NCBI GenBank assembly: GCA_030425505.1
Contig: JAUIAB010000001.1
Span: 248,001 to 312,000 of the forward strand
DNA length: 64,000 nt
DNA from: Bacteroidia bacterium
GTDB lineage: Bacteria > Bacteroidota > Bacteroidia > Cytophagales > Flammeovirgaceae
Direction: 5' to 3'
Below are positions 4,611-12,568 of the stretch, in pieces; the first letter of the stretch is position 1, and every line of letters begins with the position of its first letter. A program made the translations under genes and the position numbers. Below the pieces are notes generated by a model. It worked only from the letters and a program-made list of their open reading frames with translations, made no database searches and was not told where the DNA came from.

Positions 4611-5459
4611 ATGAGAAAGATATTTATTGTTTCATTTTTTTTACTATTTACTATTTCTACACAAGCGCAGGATTATTATGTGCTTCACGTAAAAGGTGTT
4701 GTTTTAGATAAGGAGTCTGGTAAATCAATTAGCATAGGAGATAGAATCACGGGTAACTCAGAAGTTATTTTCAAGAGTACAGACGCTAAAGTAGTAGTGT
4801 TAAATAAAGAAAAAGGTAGAGCTATTCTACAACCAAAAGTAAATACCGAAGCTGAAAGCGAAATTGCTCAGTTTGTAAAAAATATGTTCGTGCCTATGAA
4901 AAAAAGCATTAGGATGAGCACAAGAGGTGAAGGAGTAATTGAAAGCTTTTCTGACTTTAAACCATATTTTGGAGAGTCTACCTTTGTAGTAATTGGTGAT
5001 GAAATTTTAATCCCAATAAATAAAGAAAAACTGAGTCTAGACCATAATCAATTTTTGGTTTACAGATACGAAAAAGATGGAACAAGAGTGAATAAAAAAT
5101 TACACCCACACCATCATGGTTTATTGAGTATTCATAAGGATAAACTTTATAATCATAAAAATGGAGTATTTAATCATGAAGAACCACATACAGTAGACCT
5201 TTATTTCTTTGACAAGAAAAAAAATACTTCGAAAAAACTAACCTCTTTTAACCCCGTGTTTGTATCGGACAAACAATTACTTTCAGAGCTTCAGTACTTG
5301 AAAACCTTTTTGGTTGAAACAAACGAAGAAAAACCTTTTACTAAAGAACTGCTAACAGATGAATACTATGATTACATAGTAGGCACATATGGAAAAATCA
5401 ACCAGAGCTATTTTGAGAAGTGGTTGGAAAAAGAAACTGAGTTACTAGAACTACTTTAA
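4611..5459 (+). CDS. Secreted protein of unknown function
   Basis: 282 aa with a clear signal peptide (MRKIFIVSFFLLFTISTQAQ, cleavage near residue 20). The mature part begins with a beta-rich region (YVLHVKGVVLDKESGKSISIGDRI) resembling sequences that describe a small SH3-like or OB-like barrel. It contains a His-rich patch (KLHPHHHGLL) near residue 165 and a helical acidic C-terminus. A Bacteroidota -7 element TACTTTTG lies at 4592-4599, 11 bp before the ATG; no good -33 box was found at the 19-bp spacing. Tail-to-tail with the following gene, 1 bp apart. Function not recognised. Confidence 0.7.
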   Translation: MRKIFIVSFFLLFTISTQAQDYYVLHVKGVVLDKESGKSISIGDRITGNSEVIFKSTDAKVVVLNKEKGRAILQPKVNTEAESEIAQFVKNMFVPMKKSIRMSTRGEGVIESFSDFKPYFGESTFVVIGDEILIPINKEKLSLDHNQFLVYRYEKDGTRVNKKLHPHHHGLLSIHKDKLYNHKNGVFNHEEPHTVDLYFFDKKKNTSKKLTSFNPVFVSDKQLLSELQYLKTFLVETNEEKPFTKELLTDEYYDYIVGTYGKINQSYFEKWLEKETELLELL

Positions 5460-5460
5460 A

Positions 5461-6207
5461 CTAATTTCTTTTAATGATAAAAACCACTGGAAGAGTAATA
5501 AAAATAAGAACGATTAAATAATGGATTATAAATTTAACCTGAACACTAGACTTACTCGAAACTAACCTAAAATACGTTATATCCTTAGTATTACTATTTT
5601 CTTGGGCAATCTCTTCGTAAACATCTTGAGGATTATCAATTTTTACTCCATAAACTGTTTCCTTCTCAAAAAACACATAAGGGATATCCAGTTTTTCTGT
5701 AAACCATAGGTAATCTTCAGAACTTAAAACCCATACTGGTTTATCGTTGGTATTGACTTCTTTATCTAATAGGGGGTACGAAAAATAAGCATCTTCTCTT
5801 TTTGTAGATCTTGCATTTTTTCGCCCAGTCAAATAAGTAGTGCCTGAATAAATACTTCCTGGCTTAGCGTTAATAAACCCAAAAAAAGTGGCATCAGGGT
5901 AGTTTTTTGCGTCATGAATACTAATTTTAGAAATAGTATCACCTGTTATTGTGTTATAAAACAACTTAAAATCATCAATAGTAAACCAACAAACTATAAG
6001 AGAAATAACTAAGGCATAAGAAAAAGTACTCCACCAAAACCGAAGCTTTTTCTTAAGAGATAAAAAAGCACCAATTCCAATACAAGGGGCATATATAGCA
6101 AGCACAACAAATAATAAAGGAATTCTATCATACAATTGTGTCATGCACCATAGAATAAAATTGGTAAATAGAAAAATAAAAATAAAATGCAGTGCTTTCC
6201 TTTTCAT
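5461..6207 (-). CDS. Membrane protein of unknown function, last gene of the metal-transport cluster
   Basis: 248 aa. Three hydrophobic helices at the N-terminus (about residues 7-20, 30-48, 60-78), an exported domain of about 130 residues, and one C-terminal helix followed by KRN. The exported part reads like a beta-rich domain (FFGFINAKPGSIYSGTTYL, PVWVLSSEDYLWFTEKL) without recognisable catalytic residues. It follows the FtsX-like permease by 23 bp on the same strand, so it may be co-transcribed. In Vibrio the Zrg zinc system also has accessory genes beside an FtsX/LolD pair, but I see no sequence evidence that this is one of those. Function unknown. Confidence 0.65.
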   Translation of the reverse strand: MKRKALHFIFIFLFTNFILWCMTQLYDRIPLLFVVLAIYAPCIGIGAFLSLKKKLRFWWSTFSYALVISLIVCWFTIDDFKLFYNTITGDTISKISIHDAKNYPDATFFGFINAKPGSIYSGTTYLTGRKNARSTKREDAYFSYPLLDKEVNTNDKPVWVLSSEDYLWFTEKLDIPYVFFEKETVYGVKIDNPQDVYEEIAQENSNTKDITYFRLVSSKSSVQVKFIIHYLIVLIFITLPVVFIIKRN

Positions 6208-6230
6208 AGGATCTAATTTAGTTTTATCTA

Positions 6231-7502
6231 CTAAGACTCCCCCAACGTCTTTGAAATATTTACCCTCAAAGCTTTAAAAGCAGGAATAATAGAAGAAAAA
6301 ACACCTACTCCAATCGTAAGCAGGAAAAGAAAAAAAGTATCTTTTGAGTTAATAATATCTAAAAAAGAAAATACAAAACTGTTATTAGATAAATGAGATA
6401 AAATGGCAAGAGCCATATAACATCCCAAAGTCCCAAAAACAAATCCCAAAAAAGACAAAATAAGCCCTTCATTAACAACAAGAGTAAAAACCTGCCATTT
6501 AGAAGCCCCAAACGTTCTCATCAAAGCCATTTCATAAACCCTTTCTTTCAAAGAATTGTACAAACTAATAAAAACACTAATCCCAGATACTAAGATGATC
6601 GCCAAAGCCAGAACCTTTAGCGTTTCAACACCTATACCTAGAAGATTAAATAACCGGCTAATCTCATAGCTAGGCACAGCAGCTTGCATATTCGTATTCT
6701 CATTAATCTGACGAGGAATTTGTATTGTACCTAAAGGACTCCTAAACTTTACCAGCAAAGCAGTAATTTCCTTATCCTCTTCATAGCGGTGATTATGCTC
6801 TTCTTCGTGCATTTCATGATCATCATGAGGCATATGCTCTTCTTTCTCGTGTTCATCATCACTCTCCTGGTGCTCATTGCCATGATCATGCACCTCCCAA
6901 ACACTTTCCAAAGAAGTAAGAATCAACTGGTCAATAACTGAATTCGTTGGTTCTAAAACTCCTACAACAGTAAACGGATGCTCCTCATGTCCTGGGGCAG
7001 TCTCCACACTAACCAAACCATGTGTACTAAAAAAGTGATCTCCAATGTCTAACTCCAACACCTTAGCTACCGAAGCACCTACAGTTACTTCAAACGATTT
7101 TTCCCAGATCTTACCTTTAGCAACTTTTGCTTCATATAAATCCAAATAAGACCGCTCAGTACCTACAATTCTATACCCCTTATGACTATCCCCATACGAA
7201 AGAGGAATAGCCTTCTTAACCAGTGGATGCTGCATCAGCTTTTTAGCTTCAACCAATTCAATATTACCAGTAGGATCGTCGATGTGCAACACAGAAGACA
7301 AAATCAACTGCAAAGGACTACCCTTTGCTCCTGTCACCATATCAATACCTTTGATATTCTTCTCAAACTGTTCCTCTACAATAGTGCTAATATGCAACAC
7401 CAATGAAATAAGACCAACACCCAAAGCCAGAAGCAACAAACTCAAAAAAGTATTCAGAGGTCGGTCTACAATATTTTTTACACTCAACTTAAAAATATTC
7501 AT
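6231..7502 (-). CDS. FtsX/MacB-type ABC transporter permease with a histidine-rich periplasmic loop
   Basis: 423-aa integral membrane component of an ABC system. Seen: a first helix (about 15-38), a long MacB-like periplasmic domain, then three helices near 290-312, 340-368 and 385-410, the FtsX layout; YEMALMRTFGASKWQ between helices 2 and 3 is typical. Between about residues 205 and 245 lies an insertion with ten His and many Asp/Glu (e.g. HMPHDDHEMHEEEHNH), a likely low-affinity divalent-metal site. Overlaps the ATPase gene by 4 bp (translational coupling). FtsX/LolD pairs with His-rich loops are known from zinc-linked loci (Vibrio ZrgB/C); zinc as substrate here is inference from this loop and the neighbours. 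It could also act mechanically rather than as an importer. Confidence 0.88.
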   Translation of the reverse strand: MNIFKLSVKNIVDRPLNTFLSLLLLALGVGLISLVLHISTIVEEQFEKNIKGIDMVTGAKGSPLQLILSSVLHIDDPTGNIELVEAKKLMQHPLVKKAIPLSYGDSHKGYRIVGTERSYLDLYEAKVAKGKIWEKSFEVTVGASVAKVLELDIGDHFFSTHGLVSVETAPGHEEHPFTVVGVLEPTNSVIDQLILTSLESVWEVHDHGNEHQESDDEHEKEEHMPHDDHEMHEEEHNHRYEEDKEITALLVKFRSPLGTIQIPRQINENTNMQAAVPSYEISRLFNLLGIGVETLKVLALAIILVSGISVFISLYNSLKERVYEMALMRTFGASKWQVFTLVVNEGLILSFLGFVFGTLGCYMALAILSHLSNNSFVFSFLDIINSKDTFFLFLLTIGVGVFSSIIPAFKALRVNISKTLGES

Positions 7503-8125
7503 AGCTCCATCTGGTTTTTAAAATGTGCTTTTACTCTCTGATCGTGTGTAATCATAACTAAATGTGCTTTTTCCAAACTTGCTTCCTCTTTCAGCAAACT
7601 AAGAACCTTCAAGCAGTTTTTATCATCAAGGCTAGCAGTAGGCTCATCTGCCAGCAACACCTTTGGCTTATTAAGAACTGCCATAGCTATACTTACTCGT
7701 TGTTGTTCTCCCTGACTCAGAGAATATGGCTTATTCTTCCTTTTGTCAAGAATCCCTAGCTGATCCAGCACAGACTCCACCCTTTGTTTATCCTGCTTCA
7801 CCTTTGCCAGATTCTGCACCAGGAGAAGGTTTTCCATAACAGTTAATGACCGAATGAAAAAAGACTTCTGAAAAACGACTCCAACATTTTTTCCTCGAAA
7901 CTGATCCAGACTTTGCTTTCCTATTTCTGTAATATCCACAGAATCAAAAACAATACTCCCTCTTTCTGGCTTTAAAATTCCTGCCATAAGGTGCAACAGC
8001 GTTGTTTTCCCTACCCCAGACTCCCCTATTATCAGCAAATCTTCCCCATCTGATAGCTTAATATCAGGAAAATGAAAGCTCTTCTCTTTTTGATAACTAA
8101 ACTTAAGATTATTGACACTAATCAT
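7499..8125 (-). CDS. LolD/MacB-like ABC transporter ATP-binding protein
   Basis: 208-aa cytosolic ATPase partner of the overlapping permease gene. Seen: Walker A GESGVGKTT, Q-loop VFQKSFFI, signature LSQGEQQRVSIAMAV, Walker B VLLADEPTASLD and the switch His in VMITHDQRV, so all catalytic elements are intact. Length and motifs match the LolD/FtsE-type subfamily that works with FtsX-fold permeases. It is the first gene after a 206-bp gap that contains a GC-rich folded element (8204-8301), so its expression may be separable from the TonB receptor genes upstream on the same strand. Confidence 0.93.
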   Translation of the reverse strand: MISVNNLKFSYQKEKSFHFPDIKLSDGEDLLIIGESGVGKTTLLHLMAGILKPERGSIVFDSVDITEIGKQSLDQFRGKNVGVVFQKSFFIRSLTVMENLLLVQNLAKVKQDKQRVESVLDQLGILDKRKNKPYSLSQGEQQRVSIAMAVLNKPKVLLADEPTASLDDKNCLKVLSLLKEEASLEKAHLVMITHDQRVKAHFKNQMEL

Positions 8126-8203
8126 TCTTCAATAAAAGAAATAGACTTAAAAGTTACGTATTTATAACTAATAAATACCCAAGAAAAAAAGGGTGAAAAT
8201 AAT

Positions 8204-8301
8204 AGAGCACCCCCCACAAAGCTCTTCCGGCGGGTCGAGCCTACCCACCCCACATGTCCACTTCGGTCTCGCCCAGCGCCTCCTTGCCAGGGGTGCACTC
8301 T
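8204..8301 (-). ncRNA. GC-rich structured element, candidate RNA or dispersed repeat
   Basis: A 98-bp block far richer in G+C than its AT-rich surroundings, lying between the lipoprotein and ATPase genes of the metal cluster. The two ends pair: AGAGCACCCC at 8204-8213 with GGGGTGCACTCT at 8290-8301 (two-base bulge). On the minus strand an inner helix GGC(GCT)GGGCGAG with CTCG(A)CCCGCC can also form. It holds no ORF and matches no RNA family I can name (not tRNA, SRP RNA or RNase P by motif). It could be an mRNA-stability or attenuator structure between the two halves of the cluster, a small RNA, or one copy of an interspersed repeat; only one copy is in the window. Confidence 0.45.
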
Positions 8302-8331
8302 TTTTCTACAAAAAAGAAAAAAACTATCTCA

Positions 8332-8970
8332 CTATCGAACGATAAGCCTAAAAGTAAGATCAAAATCTGTATCCCCAACATTAACACCAGAAGAAACTGA
8401 CTTCATACCTTGTTGATGCTTTAATACTACCCTGAAACTACCGTTGCTTATTCCACTTCCGGCAGTCCAAGAAGAAGAAAGTCCAAGAGGGCGACCATTA
8501 GAATCTTGATCTGAATAATTAACTGGATCAGAAGGATTATCAATATTACCATCTCCAGCTGGATTAGAAAATGCACCTTCAGTAAAACCAAAGAAAACCT
8601 GGTGATCATCTGCCTCCTCTAAAATTTCTTCTGTTACATCATAGCCATGATCGTGTCCGTGGTCATCATCATGCTCTGCCAACTCATTGATAGCTTCAAT
8701 AGATAAGCTATACGTCTTGCCTACAGATAACACAATATCATCTTTTATCTCTAAACCTTGAATTCCCTCTCCATCTGGGTCTTCTGCTAATGCTGTTACC
8801 ACCTCACCATCATTACTGCTAAATGTTAGCGTTATATCCGTGATAAGCTCCGACTCATTTTCTTCTGGGGGTAGATCATCATCGTCATCCTTATCACAAG
8901 ACGTCAGGAAAAGACTTGAAACAAACGATATAAAAAAAAGAAATTTGACTAAAACATTGTACTTTTTCAT
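8332..8970 (-). CDS. Acidic, His-containing lipoprotein, predicted metal-binding partner of the TonB receptor
   Basis: 212 aa. N-terminal signal ending in a lipobox (LFLTSC, Cys near residue 25) followed by DKDDDDDLPPEENE, so a lipid-anchored envelope protein. The middle holds the cluster HDDDHGHDHGYD (about residues 100-111) and a further ADDHQ; the rest is beta-rich. Starts 5 bp after the TonB receptor stop, so the two are surely co-transcribed and probably work together at the outer membrane. A metal chaperone or substrate-capture role is inferred from composition and context; there is no family name I can give with confidence. Ends before the GC-rich element. Confidence 0.82.
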   Translation of the reverse strand: MKKYNVLVKFLFFISFVSSLFLTSCDKDDDDDLPPEENESELITDITLTFSSNDGEVVTALAEDPDGEGIQGLEIKDDIVLSVGKTYSLSIEAINELAEHDDDHGHDHGYDVTEEILEEADDHQVFFGFTEGAFSNPAGDGNIDNPSDPVNYSDQDSNGRPLGLSSSWTAGSGISNGSFRVVLKHQQGMKSVSSGVNVGDTDFDLTFRLIVR

Positions 8971-8975
8971 TGTAA

Positions 8976-11408
8976 TTAAAATTTATATTGGATTGAAAAT
9001 AAAAAATTTCTTCCTGGCTCATCTGCAAAGTAGCGCATCTGATTGAGGTAATTTCGATAAGAAGTATTAAGCAAATTCTGAACACCAACCCTTCCACTCA
9101 ACTTTTCCCAAGACCAACTGCAACCCAAATCGGCTAAAAAATAACCTTGAGGAGCATCCTTGAAATCAAAAATTTCGTCATCACTAGTAATTTCAACAGA
9201 TCCATTGGCAATCTCTTCAGGGGCAATTGTTCTAGGTGACTGATACTGTTCAAACGTATACGTCGTTTTTAAGTCAAATGTAAGATCAACCCGATCAAAA
9301 AGAGGCTTGGGAGACCAGTTTAAAGCATAGCTAATATTAATGGGAGGTTGATTAATTAAAAACGCATCATCATCAATATTTCTAGACCACAAATAACTCA
9401 AACCCCACTCATACTCCCAGTTTTTGTGCAAATCATGACTATAGGTTAGGTCTGCACCAAAAAAAACAGCATTAGTTTGATCATAAATAAATACTGGCAT
9501 TGGTCCTCTTACTGTTCCTACAACTGCAAGAGGTCTTTCAAAAATAAAGTTTTCAATATAATTAGCATAAATAGTTGCTACCAGTGAGGTTTTGGGGCTA
9601 CTAACTTCTATTTCACTAATCCACTTATAGCCTTTTTCTGGTCTTATGCTTTTCTCCTCTTCGTTGAGCACTCTATCTGTTTTAAAAGTCCCTTCCAAAG
9701 TCTCATAATATCTCCATAAACCATATATACTCTTAAACCCATGCTGACCAAAGCTATATAGCTCCGCTATATTCGGTGCTCTCCATGAAGAACTAAGGTT
9801 AGATCGAAAATGTATTTTTTCAGTAATGTCCGTTAATACACCAAGAGAAGCAGTCACATTAGAAAAAGAGTATTCATTTCTAAAAACACTCTGATCAACA
9901 ACCCTTCCTCTTACAGAGTTGTACTCTCTATCCATTCTTAAACCCAGCTCATAGGTAGTTTTTTCCTTAATTAAGCTTTCGATCAAAAAGAAACTCCACC
10001 TTCTGGTATTATAATTTGGAATAAAAGCAGTTACTCCAGTACCAGCAATATTATCGTTATCCTGAATAAAGTATTGCAGCCCTACGCTTCCTTCTAACTG
10101 ATTTAGCGACAAATGCTTCCATTCTATACGAGCATCTTCTGTTTCTAAATTTAGATTTATAATGGGTAGATCTGCATTTCTTCTGACATCATACTCTTTT
10201 CTGGAATTAACCTGCTTGCTTAGACGCAAACTAAAATTTCCAATAGGAGAATGCCAGTCAACCGTTGAAACAGCCAAGTGGTGTTTTGTTGCCTGACTAG
10301 GTTCATTAATAGTATAAGAAAAATCATTGACAATAAGTGGTCTAGGAGAAGATATAGCCCTTTGTAAATCGTCCCCATTTCCGAAAACAGAAGATCGTAA
10401 TAACCCTAAGTCCTGATCGGTAAAATTATACCTAAACTTAAAATGCCAATTAGAAATATGATAATGAAATCCAGCATTAGCGGCAATTTCTTCTTTTCCA
10501 GTATTGGTTAAATTGTATTCTGGGGCTCTTCTATCTCCTATTTCTATATAAGAGCCTCCAAGGTAATAGCTAAATCTATCAAAACCCTGATTCAACTCCG
10601 CATTTACATGGTACCCTCTCCCATTGGTTTCGTAACCTGTACTTACACTTCCATTAAACTTTTGAAATAAAGAAAGAGGATTACCTTCTACTATCACAAC
10701 TCCCCCCAAAGCCTCAGGACCATATTTCACACTTGCCGCACCTTTCAAAACGGTTATTCTATCAATGCTCGACAAGCTAATCTCAGGGGAATGATCTAAA
10801 CCCCAGTTTTGAAACCCATGTTTTACACCATTATTAACAATTAAAACTCTATTGCCATACAAACCATGTATGACTGGTAACTGCACATTATTTCCATTAG
10901 AAATATAGGTTACTCCCTGAATTCCACTAATAACTTCACCGAGAGACTGAGAGATTTTTGAAGAAATATCCTTTTTGGTAACTTGATTCAAAGCCATTGA
11001 CTCAACGCCATCGCCCAAGCCTGAACTTTTATCTTGTACAACCACCTCTTCTAACTCAAAAGAAGATTCTACCAACTTAATAGTAATATCTTTTTGATAA
11101 TTATCAATATGATAAACAGTGGGTTGATACCCCACACATGAACAAATAAGATTACACTGATTATGGCATAAATTTTTTATAGCAAAATGACCATCATCAC
11201 CTGTTGTAACTCCAGCTACAGCATTTTCTACCTTTATGTTTGCATAAGGTATGGGTTGTTTGGATGCAGCATCAATTACCCTTCCTTTAAGCTCATATTT
11301 GCAGGAATCAAGGTTGTTAGCACCAGCATAGGTATAGAAAGCTGTTAAAACTATTACTGCTACAAGAGCACTTCTTATATTAATATAGAGGGTACTAATT
11401 AACCTCAT
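8976..11408 (-). CDS. TonB-dependent outer-membrane receptor, predicted metal (zinc) uptake
   Basis: 810-aa TonB-dependent transporter. Domains: signal peptide to about residue 30; CarboxypepD_reg-like beta-sandwich (about 38-120, YELKGRVIDAASKQPIPYANIKV), typical of Bacteroidota; plug domain (about 140-245, with VIHGLYGNRVLIVNNG and RITVLKGAASVKYGPEALGGVV); then a 22-strand barrel ending in the outer-membrane terminal FLFSIQYKF. Not a SusC (too short, no SusD next door). Neighbours are a His/Asp-rich lipoprotein, a MerC-like membrane protein and an FtsX/LolD pair with a His-rich loop, pointing to a divalent metal. Zinc is favoured by analogy with ZnuD-type receptors and by the operator upstream; iron, copper or nickel cannot be excluded. 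Confidence 0.93.
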   Translation of the reverse strand: MRLISTLYINIRSALVAVIVLTAFYTYAGANNLDSCKYELKGRVIDAASKQPIPYANIKVENAVAGVTTGDDGHFAIKNLCHNQCNLICSCVGYQPTVYHIDNYQKDITIKLVESSFELEEVVVQDKSSGLGDGVESMALNQVTKKDISSKISQSLGEVISGIQGVTYISNGNNVQLPVIHGLYGNRVLIVNNGVKHGFQNWGLDHSPEISLSSIDRITVLKGAASVKYGPEALGGVVIVEGNPLSLFQKFNGSVSTGYETNGRGYHVNAELNQGFDRFSYYLGGSYIEIGDRRAPEYNLTNTGKEEIAANAGFHYHISNWHFKFRYNFTDQDLGLLRSSVFGNGDDLQRAISSPRPLIVNDFSYTINEPSQATKHHLAVSTVDWHSPIGNFSLRLSKQVNSRKEYDVRRNADLPIINLNLETEDARIEWKHLSLNQLEGSVGLQYFIQDNDNIAGTGVTAFIPNYNTRRWSFFLIESLIKEKTTYELGLRMDREYNSVRGRVVDQSVFRNEYSFSNVTASLGVLTDITEKIHFRSNLSSSWRAPNIAELYSFGQHGFKSIYGLWRYYETLEGTFKTDRVLNEEEKSIRPEKGYKWISEIEVSSPKTSLVATIYANYIENFIFERPLAVVGTVRGPMPVFIYDQTNAVFFGADLTYSHDLHKNWEYEWGLSYLWSRNIDDDAFLINQPPINISYALNWSPKPLFDRVDLTFDLKTTYTFEQYQSPRTIAPEEIANGSVEITSDDEIFDFKDAPQGYFLADLGCSWSWEKLSGRVGVQNLLNTSYRNYLNQMRYFADEPGRNFLFSIQYKF

Positions 11409-11493
11409 AAAAATTTATTTTACGGATAATCAGAGGGTTATTTGTTTTATTAAAATTATCTAGTGAGGTTAGGTAAGATTCAATTTATTGAAT

Positions 11494-11898
11494 CTAATAT
11501 CTGCAAACCTTGCATTGTTTACAGAGCTTCCAGTTTACAACATAAGCTGAAGCTAAAACCAAACTACCAATAATATGAGTTAGCTCTATTAGAGGGCTAA
11601 CATGCAAAAAACCTATTGAAAGTAGAACTACAGCTACCAAAAGAATATAAAGGGCTATTTTCCTTCCATGATGTTGCCGATATCCCTTCCATAAAGTTGC
11701 TGAACCAATTATGACACCTAATCCTATTAATAGGATTTCTAAAAGTTCGTTGTGCAAAAAATGAGAGCCAAGTAGTGGAAAAAAAGAAATAATAAATGGA
11801 GTAATAAGACAGTGAATCAGACATATCGTCGAAGCAGATGCTCCTAAAGTCTCCCAGTTTATTTTGCTAATGTGTTTTTTCACCTTTCTTATATGCAT
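11494..11898 (-). CDS. MerC-like membrane protein
   Basis: 134 aa with four hydrophobic helices (about residues 20-40, 50-68, 80-97, 102-122). Helix 1 contains the MerC hallmark CxxHC (CLIHC), and the C-terminus carries a second Cys cluster (CKQCKVC). MerC of Tn21 brings Hg(II) across the inner membrane, but no merA, merT, merP or merR is nearby. In Bacteroidota MerC-like genes commonly stand beside TonB receptors and Fur-family regulators, so a role in another thiophilic or borderline metal such as zinc is more likely. First gene of the locus; the ATG overlaps the second operator-like dyad. It is separated from the receptor gene by 85 bp, which include a small hairpin (11477-11494). Confidence 0.85.
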   Translation of the reverse strand: MHIRKVKKHISKINWETLGASASTICLIHCLITPFIISFFPLLGSHFLHNELLEILLIGLGVIIGSATLWKGYRQHHGRKIALYILLVAVVLLSIGFLHVSPLIELTHIIGSLVLASAYVVNWKLCKQCKVCRY

Positions 11899-11908
11899 TA
11901 TTGTTGCA
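11894..11908. promoter_or_regulatory. Second, imperfect operator-like dyad over the merC start
   Basis: TGCA-N7-TGCA with the same half-site sequence and the same 7-bp spacing as the core of the perfect palindrome 32 bp away. It covers the end of the -7 box and the MerC start codon. A bound repressor here would block both polymerase and ribosome access. Inference from symmetry and spacing only. Confidence 0.5.
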
Positions 11909-11936
11909 AAAATAAAAAGATAATCTATTTATGCAA
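11907..11936 (-). promoter_or_regulatory. Bacteroidota promoter of the MerC/TonB operon
   Basis: On the minus strand: -33 TTG (11936-11934), exactly 19 bp, then -7 TATTTTTG (11914-11907), matching the Bacteroidota consensus TTG/TAnnTTTG. The -33 triplet lies inside the 27-bp palindrome, so the promoter is built to be repressed by whatever binds that site. Confidence 0.7.
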
Positions 11937-11952
11937 CAATGTTGCATAAATA
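11926..11952. promoter_or_regulatory. Perfect 27-bp palindrome, predicted Fur/Zur-family operator
   Basis: Two 13-base arms (left arm TATTTATGCAACA) around a single central base, with no mismatch. It overlaps the -33 box of the MerC/TonB promoter. The size and A/T-flanked dyad with TGCAACA-N-TGTTGCA core resemble operators of Fur-superfamily repressors; assignment to Zur is inference from the metal-related cargo. The regulator gene is not in this window. Confidence 0.7.
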
Positions 11953-12031
11953 TTCACTAAAATAACCTAGCTATAAGAGAAAGGTTAAAGCACTGGAAGG
12001 ATTTAAAGTTTAATGGGAAAAGGAAGATATT

Positions 12032-12063
12032 AAAAAATAAGGCTTACAATGCTATGTAAGCCT
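12032..12063 (-). terminator. Rho-independent terminator after the PEGA lipoprotein
   Basis: On the minus strand a perfect 9-bp stem (AGGCTTACA/TGTAAGCCT, 12063-12055 with 12048-12040), 6-base loop, followed by TTATTTTTT. It starts 8 bp past the stop codon of the PEGA gene. Confidence 0.8.
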
Positions 12064-12070
12064 CAAGAAA

Positions 12071-12568
12071 TTATTTTACTTTTTCTAAAGTTCCGATTTT
12101 TTCCCAGCTAGAGTCTGGTGTAAGAGTTACTGCAAAATAAATATTTCCATCATTAGAGTAATTAGAAGCAGTAGATTTATTCATTTGCGCTATTATTTGG
12201 TTAGGGTTTAATTTATACATACTACCATTAGCTGCATCAATAATAATTCCTATTAAACCACCAAAAACCAAATTACCTAAAAACCACTCATTCATTTCTC
12301 TTTTAAGTTTTACTTCGTAGGGGTAGTAACCATTTAGTTCAATTTTAACGTTGTATTCTTTTTTGCCAGATCTACTCCCTTTTTCCCTTCCTTTTCTCCT
12401 TAAAGAAATTGATTTTGGTGTTTCTCCGTAACTTTTACCATCAATAGTGATTTTTGCTCCAGATGGCTGGCTTGTAAAATCTACATTTTGCGTTGGTCCA
12501 TGAATTATGGATGCGCAGCTACTTAAAATAAAAATAAAAGCAATAAAAAAAATTTGTTTAGTTTTCAT
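12071..12568 (-). CDS. PEGA-domain lipoprotein
   Basis: 165 aa. Signal sequence with lipobox ILSSC (Cys near 18). Residues about 28-90 form a PEGA domain (VDFTSQPSGAKITIDGKSYG, ELNGYYPYEVKLKR), a surface-layer or carbohydrate-associated beta fold; the GETPKSISLR turn is typical. It is followed by a hydrophobic glycine-rich stretch (FLGNLVFGGLIGIIIDA) that may be membrane-active or buried, and a helical tail. Monocistronic, with its own terminator. Molecular role unknown beyond envelope location. Confidence 0.82.
   Translation of the reverse strand: MKTKQIFFIAFIFILSSCASIIHGPTQNVDFTSQPSGAKITIDGKSYGETPKSISLRRKGREKGSRSGKKEYNVKIELNGYYPYEVKLKREMNEWFLGNLVFGGLIGIIIDAANGSMYKLNPNQIIAQMNKSTASNYSNDGNIYFAVTLTPDSSWEKIGTLEKVK

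Follow-up and report, generated by a model that had tools for sequence, protein, structure and literature searches.

A predicted zinc-acquisition operon in a Flammeovirgaceae bacterium joins a MerC-family protein, an outer-membrane receptor and a Zrg-type ABC pair behind a probable Zur operator

The window analysed here is a stretch of 64,000 nucleotides, positions 248001–312000 of contig 21, from the 2.95-Mb draft genome (34% GC) of a Flammeovirgaceae bacterium. Between positions 6231 and 11952 it holds five genes, all on the minus strand, which encode a MerC-family membrane protein, a TonB-dependent outer-membrane receptor, a lipoprotein and an ATP-binding cassette (ABC) pair, composed of a LolD/FtsE-type ATPase and an FtsX/MacB-type permease (Table 1). 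Open-reading-frame coordinates confirm this one-strand arrangement as given in an initial annotation of the DNA, which had proposed a metal-acquisition locus. That proposal is supported by Zrg-type matches of the permease, a recurring neighbourhood and a probable zinc-starvation operator, and the metal, left unspecified at the time, is very probably zinc as far as sequence can tell. The receptor and lipoprotein genes are 5 bp apart, the ATPase and permease genes overlap by 4 bp, and a single transcript across all five is likely.

Table 1 Features of the cluster and its surroundings, in window coordinates
Feature	Position	Strand	Remarks
MerC-family membrane protein, 134 aa	11494..11898	-	Pfam MerC; site C26-x-x-H29-C30
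TonB-dependent outer-membrane receptor, 810 aa	8976..11408	-	domain matches; homologous to box-headed receptors elsewhere
Lipoprotein, 212 aa, His-rich insert	8332..8970	-	invariant H123 and H185; four other genomes have homologues headed by the same box
Lipid cysteine and putative surface-export signal C-D-K-D-D (residues 25-29)	8884..8898	-	C-x-K-(D/E)2 rule
LolD/FtsE-type ABC ATPase, 208 aa	7499..8125	-	orthologue of ZrgC/PA4064 by context
FtsX/MacB-type permease, 423 aa	6231..7502	-	orthologue of ZrgB/PA4065
His-rich periplasmic loop of the permease, residues 204-240	6783..6893	-	predicted disordered
Operator box 1, 23-bp perfect inverted repeat TTTATGCAAC-ATT-GTTGCATAAA	11928..11950	-	predicted Zur site over the -33 element
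Operator box 2, degenerate copy TGCAACAATAATGCA	11894..11908	-	38 bp from box 1; overlaps the MerC start codon
Predicted -7 element TATTTTTG (TAnnTTTG)	11907..11914	-	19 bp from the -33 TTG; consensus PMC9723704
Orphan membrane protein, 248 aa	5461..6207	-	starts 23 bp past the permease

Upstream of the MerC gene, and inside the region's end at 11952, lies a perfect palindrome, TTTATGCAACATTGTTGCATAAA (box 1), that went unmentioned in the initial annotation. The exact sequence TGCAACNNNGTTGCA occurs once in the genome, at this box; with up to two mismatches allowed, there are 65 sites compared with 19 for a control, the sites being unsorted. The boxes often come in pairs, and within pairs 38 bp is the modal distance: 18 unique pairs are spaced by exactly 38 bp and 36 by 35–40 bp, against an expectation of about 0.03 per distance. 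The motif TAnnTT directly abuts one box, giving TAnnTTTG, in 31 of the 36, among them the window's pair (compared with 1.2% for neighbouring DNA); in these the second box has its TTG 16–21 bp upstream, most often 19. Flavobacterium sigma-A promoters have TAnnTTTG as their −7 consensus (PMC9723704), so in such a pair the −33 element falls under one box and the −7 element under the other, and this placement of the boxes on the promoter accounts for the 38-bp peak. The window matches the promoter pattern exactly, with TTG at 11934–11936, a 19-nucleotide spacer and then TATTTTTG; the predicted transcript start would fall near 11902, four bases ahead of the MerC ATG. Elsewhere in the same genome, at L169 (G000:C22:97000-104000), heavy-metal efflux genes lie with a third Fur-family gene and with the gene for a 722-aa TonB receptor; just upstream of that receptor stands the palindrome TGCAATGGCATTGCA, possibly a second, related operator.

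Loci from other genomes that were chosen purely on protein similarity carry the same motif 5′ of MerC, LolD–FtsX, Fur-family, COG0523 and lipoprotein genes. An unbiased scan of 118 genomes of the order for the exact box, TTGCAACANTGTTGCAW, found it in 32, and the control, the motif read backwards, in none. Taking the genes beside 57 box sites and profiling 58 of their proteins with Pfam gave MerC (9), TonB plug (8), pyridine-nucleotide oxidoreductase (6), CobW (4), GTP cyclohydrolase I (3), DUF1826 (3) and FUR (2). Four further box-side proteins, from four other genomes, are homologous to the window's lipoprotein, and six box-headed receptors align with most of the length of its receptor at 27–32% identity. 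One box-headed lipoprotein matches AztD at 96 bits; in the Pedobacter cluster described below, the COG0523 protein matches ZigA at 535 bits, for a cut-off of 600. Read against the known content of Zur regulons (PMC6103462, PMC2770081), these genes point to a zinc-starvation regulon, with an inverted-repeat operator common to its promoters as expected of Zur. The regulon shares COG0523 proteins, GTP cyclohydrolase I, TonB receptors and an autoregulated Fur-family gene with the Zur regulons of Proteobacteria, Firmicutes and Cyanobacteria. It differs from them in the operator, TGCAAC-N3-GTTGCA, often paired at 38 bp and fixed to the −33 and −7 elements, and in having MerC and the lipoprotein as core members. 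A thioredoxin-reductase-like FAD/NAD(P) oxidoreductase also recurs under the same box (L138, L139, L141, L153 and L161).

The genes of the cluster keep company in other genomes as well. Nine distant MerC loci had enough flanking DNA to be judged: in six, MerC lies no more than two genes from a Fur-family gene, and a seventh (L060) reads MerC–LolD–FtsX, with DUF3299-like genes and a Fur gene after them. The permease led to 79 named Bacteroidota loci, of which 74 have the ATPase next to it and 64 a DUF3299-like gene after the pair, with MerC (17), COG0523 (13), Fur (12), receptor (9) and lipoprotein (4) genes nearby. The name DUF3299-like for these Bacteroidota proteins is based on a CxxCG motif, a local hidden Markov model (HMM) and hhalign (93%), and not on Pfam, which returned no match for the Pedobacter protein. 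In Pedobacter panaciterrae, P. foliorum and Pedobacter sp. B4-66, a lipoprotein–receptor–COG0523 arm diverges from a MerC–LolD–FtsX–DUF3299-like–Fur arm, with a box pair between the two. The proposal of a distinct Bacteroidota version thus holds, since the neighbourhood recurs in other members of the phylum. A conserved order is borne out in part: MerC–LolD–FtsX and receptor–lipoprotein adjacency were found, but the window's exact five-gene order was found in none of the other genomes examined. The set therefore recurs, and the window has it in a different order. Trios of LolD, FtsX and a DUF3299-like gene, mostly from Dyadobacter (L185, L187, L190, L198, L200, L217 and L223), have no zinc-type neighbours, and no box is recognisable in the locus; the operator may be a different one there, or the trio may serve another purpose.

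The ABC pair is of the Zrg type. The permease matches Pfam FtsX (4.9e-18) and MacB_PCD (7e-12), and the ATPase ABC_tran (5.8e-36). The likeness to Vibrio Zrg suggested earlier is upheld by the permease's best plasmid matches, which lie in Zrg-type operons of Phaeobacter (Fur, DUF2796, ATPase, permease, DUF3299) and P. aeruginosa (DUF2796, ATPase, permease, DUF3299) and align over the full length at about 28% identity; for the permease of the Fur-headed operon, tblastn gives 5e-42 over residues 3–420. The same layout has been reported for Vibrio ZrgABCDE (PMC9817125) and PA4063–4066 (PMC8561739). Residues 204–245 contain 10 His, the densest His stretch among the window's open frames of at least 100 codons, much as the initial annotation had counted them in about 38 residues; the length of this loop varies greatly among permeases, and the residues that persist are H161 and H205, invariant in 45 Bacteroidota permeases. 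Two proteobacterial Zrg permeases have both of them as well, together with H172. Further features shared with ZrgABCDE and PA4063–PA4066 are the ATPase with a MacB/FtsX-type permease, Fur-family regulation and, in most Bacteroidota relatives, a DUF3299 or DUF3299-like small protein downstream. Unlike Zrg, the window's cluster has its His-rich loop moved into the permease and a different operator, and adds a receptor, a lipoprotein and MerC. It also lacks ZrgA: no DUF2796 was found among the cluster proteins, nor in this genome or 59 genomes of the order, in a search whose control stayed silent. Likewise, ZrgE (DUF3299) was found neither in the cluster nor in the genome, where again the control was silent. 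The permease model (pLDDT 88.9) has a MacB/LolCDE fold with a disordered His-rich loop, and its best Protein Data Bank (PDB) matches are MacB, LolE and a Streptococcus MacB-like protein (Z 19.7–24.3), which places it in type VII.

MerC matches Pfam MerC (PF03203) over the whole domain (5.1e-20; 72.5 bits for a gathering score of 27.6). The metal-ligand motifs listed in the initial annotation are all present, including CLIHC at residue 26 and CKQCKVC at residue 126 of MerC and HDDDHGHDHGYD at residue 100 of the lipoprotein; two of them are not conserved. In the MerC alignment only C26, H29, C30, P34 and N122 are invariant, and the C-terminal CxxCxxC is not kept. The HDDDHGHDHG stretch of the lipoprotein is an insertion specific to this genome and missing from its homologues; the residues invariant across the family are H123 and H185. 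After the signal peptide, the lipoprotein begins C-D-K-D-D, in agreement with the C-x-K-(D/E)2 rule, and is predicted to be exported to the surface; this rule was shown in Capnocytophaga (PMC5080379) and may not hold for the present order. The lipoprotein has no family match, its AlphaFold2 model is poor (pLDDT 46), and a profile comparison with the PDB turned up no relative, no match being better than an E value of 0.39. The receptor consists of an N-terminal CarbopepD_reg_2 domain, a plug and a barrel. As with ZnuD and other Zur-regulated receptors, it is a TonB-dependent receptor within a zinc-type regulon, distinguished from ZnuD by its CarboxypepD_reg N-terminal domain and its lipoprotein partner.

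We regard the cluster, with good confidence, as a predicted Zur-type, repressed zinc-acquisition operon. Its gene content, operator, regulon and orthology come from the computation itself, and we infer its working as follows, from the binding of Zur and its zinc ligand to each transport step and its direction. When zinc is ample, a dimer of a Fur-family Zur would occupy each of the two TGCAAC-N3-GTTGCA-type boxes, over −33 and −7, and keep RNA polymerase off; exhaustion of zinc would allow the operon to be transcribed. The surface lipoprotein may then capture zinc and pass it to the TonB-dependent receptor, which would bring it into the periplasm. From there MerC, proposed as an inner-membrane zinc carrier, would take zinc across the membrane by way of its C-x-x-H-C site. 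LolD/FtsX, a type VII ABC pair orthologous to ZrgCB, may bind zinc through the His-rich loop and the conserved His and use ATP to move zinc, or a zinc carrier, within the periplasm. MerC is given the part of importer since solved members of the permease fold are exporters, lipoprotein extractors and force transmitters, which makes a direct import channel doubtful. The wider combination, in which a Bacteroidota-specific Zur operator locked on −33 and −7, MerC as inner-membrane importer and a type VII ABC pair moving periplasmic zinc would amount to uptake without the classical ZnuABC, is put forward tentatively, at somewhat under even chances. In this genome ZnuA was not found, although the positive control responded; there is one ZIP, and no clear COG0523 zinc GTPase, the CobW-type matches being weak and in frames of 1123 and 330 aa.

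Several observations weigh against a Zur-type operon of five genes. Box 2 of the window is degenerate. The genome encodes three Fur-family proteins, of which the best Zur candidate (C23:78048) has the Zur model as its top NCBIfam match, at a weak score, and shares 43% identity with Fur proteins whose genes neighbour MerC. In a tree of Fur proteins, the two candidates of this genome stand on long branches and are not placed. The modelled fold of the permease is that of exporters and force transmitters, not importers. No recognisable box lies within 1.5 kb in 60 of the 79 LolD–FtsX–DUF3299-like loci, and the lipoprotein and ATPase genes are 206 bp apart, a gap that contains a GC-rich inverted repeat and may split the transcript. 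These last two points, together with a fold close to LolCDE, would suit a division into two units, a zinc-regulated MerC–receptor–lipoprotein operon and a separate LolD–FtsX pair downstream, for example with a role in lipoproteins or the cell envelope. We consider this unlikely: in L060 and Pedobacter, MerC directly adjoins LolD–FtsX behind a box, in L040, L058, L059 and L115 LolD or FtsX has a box immediately 5′ of it, and the permease reaches only 55 of 362 bits on the LolCE model, whereas Zrg permeases match it over the full length.

Another metal (copper, iron or heme, nickel or manganese), sensed by a Fur-family regulator other than Zur, is suggested by the receptor. The ZnuD-type comparison of the initial annotation finds little backing in its 58 bits on the ZnuD model (curated cut-off 950), even though ZnuD (4rdr) is among the nearest structures; heme and hemoglobin receptor models give 130 bits, and the best solved match is OprC, a copper receptor. 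His-rich proteins, moreover, bind several metals. Such barrel scores are dominated by general features, however, and the genes under the same box form a classic zinc-starvation set, with COG0523 proteins of the ZigA type, GTP cyclohydrolase I, an AztD-like protein and DUF1826; with the permease grouping among Zur-regulated Zrg systems, a different metal seems decidedly unlikely. A mercury-resistance locus, to which the Pfam MerC match might point, is rejected as highly improbable. No merR, merT, merP, merA or other mer gene occurs among the eight genes at 4611–12568, and a plasmid search with MerC returned four weak matches, none in a mer operon. The window's MerC shares the Pfam family with MerC of mercury-resistance operons but has a C-x-x-H-C site; its relatives stand beside Fur genes and under a box common to zinc-type genes, and a TonB receptor with a scavenging lipoprotein would make no sense for the export or reduction of mercury.

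Around the probable zinc operon, a few features remain to be described. The GC-rich stretch between the lipoprotein and ATPase genes (8205–8300) has inverted ends, GAGTGCACCCC and GGGGGGTGCTC, no Rfam match and no second copy in the window or the fetched loci; it is a candidate terminator, attenuator or small mobile repeat. A structured RNA in the gap was considered and set aside, given no Rfam match and a fold z-score of only −0.75, and an FsrA match in Rfam at 5726–5803 (22 bits, cut-off 80) was judged to be chance. The orphan membrane protein, with no family match and no homologue in any fetched locus, is a possible member as the last gene of the operon. A plus-strand gene at 4611–5459 (282 aa) converges on the operon's end; it has 8 His in 38 residues (HPHHHG ... 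HEEPH), and no family was found for it.

A literature search, with subscription papers and RegPrecise outside its reach, found no Zur box or zinc regulon for Bacteroidota, and the review of Zur (PMC6103462) does not mention the phylum. What appears to be new is the operator, its locking to the promoter, MerC as a zinc-starvation protein and the combination; the individual pieces are of known kinds. Bacteroidota dominate in the gut, soil and sea, and their zinc homeostasis is little studied; a predicted operator with a clear promoter logic would make the zinc regulon of the phylum readable from sequence. The findings suggest that many genes annotated in Bacteroidota as ‘MerC mercury resistance’ are zinc genes. 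The cluster also offers a test case for how ABC proteins of the MacB/FtsX type, normally exporters or force transmitters, may serve metal uptake.

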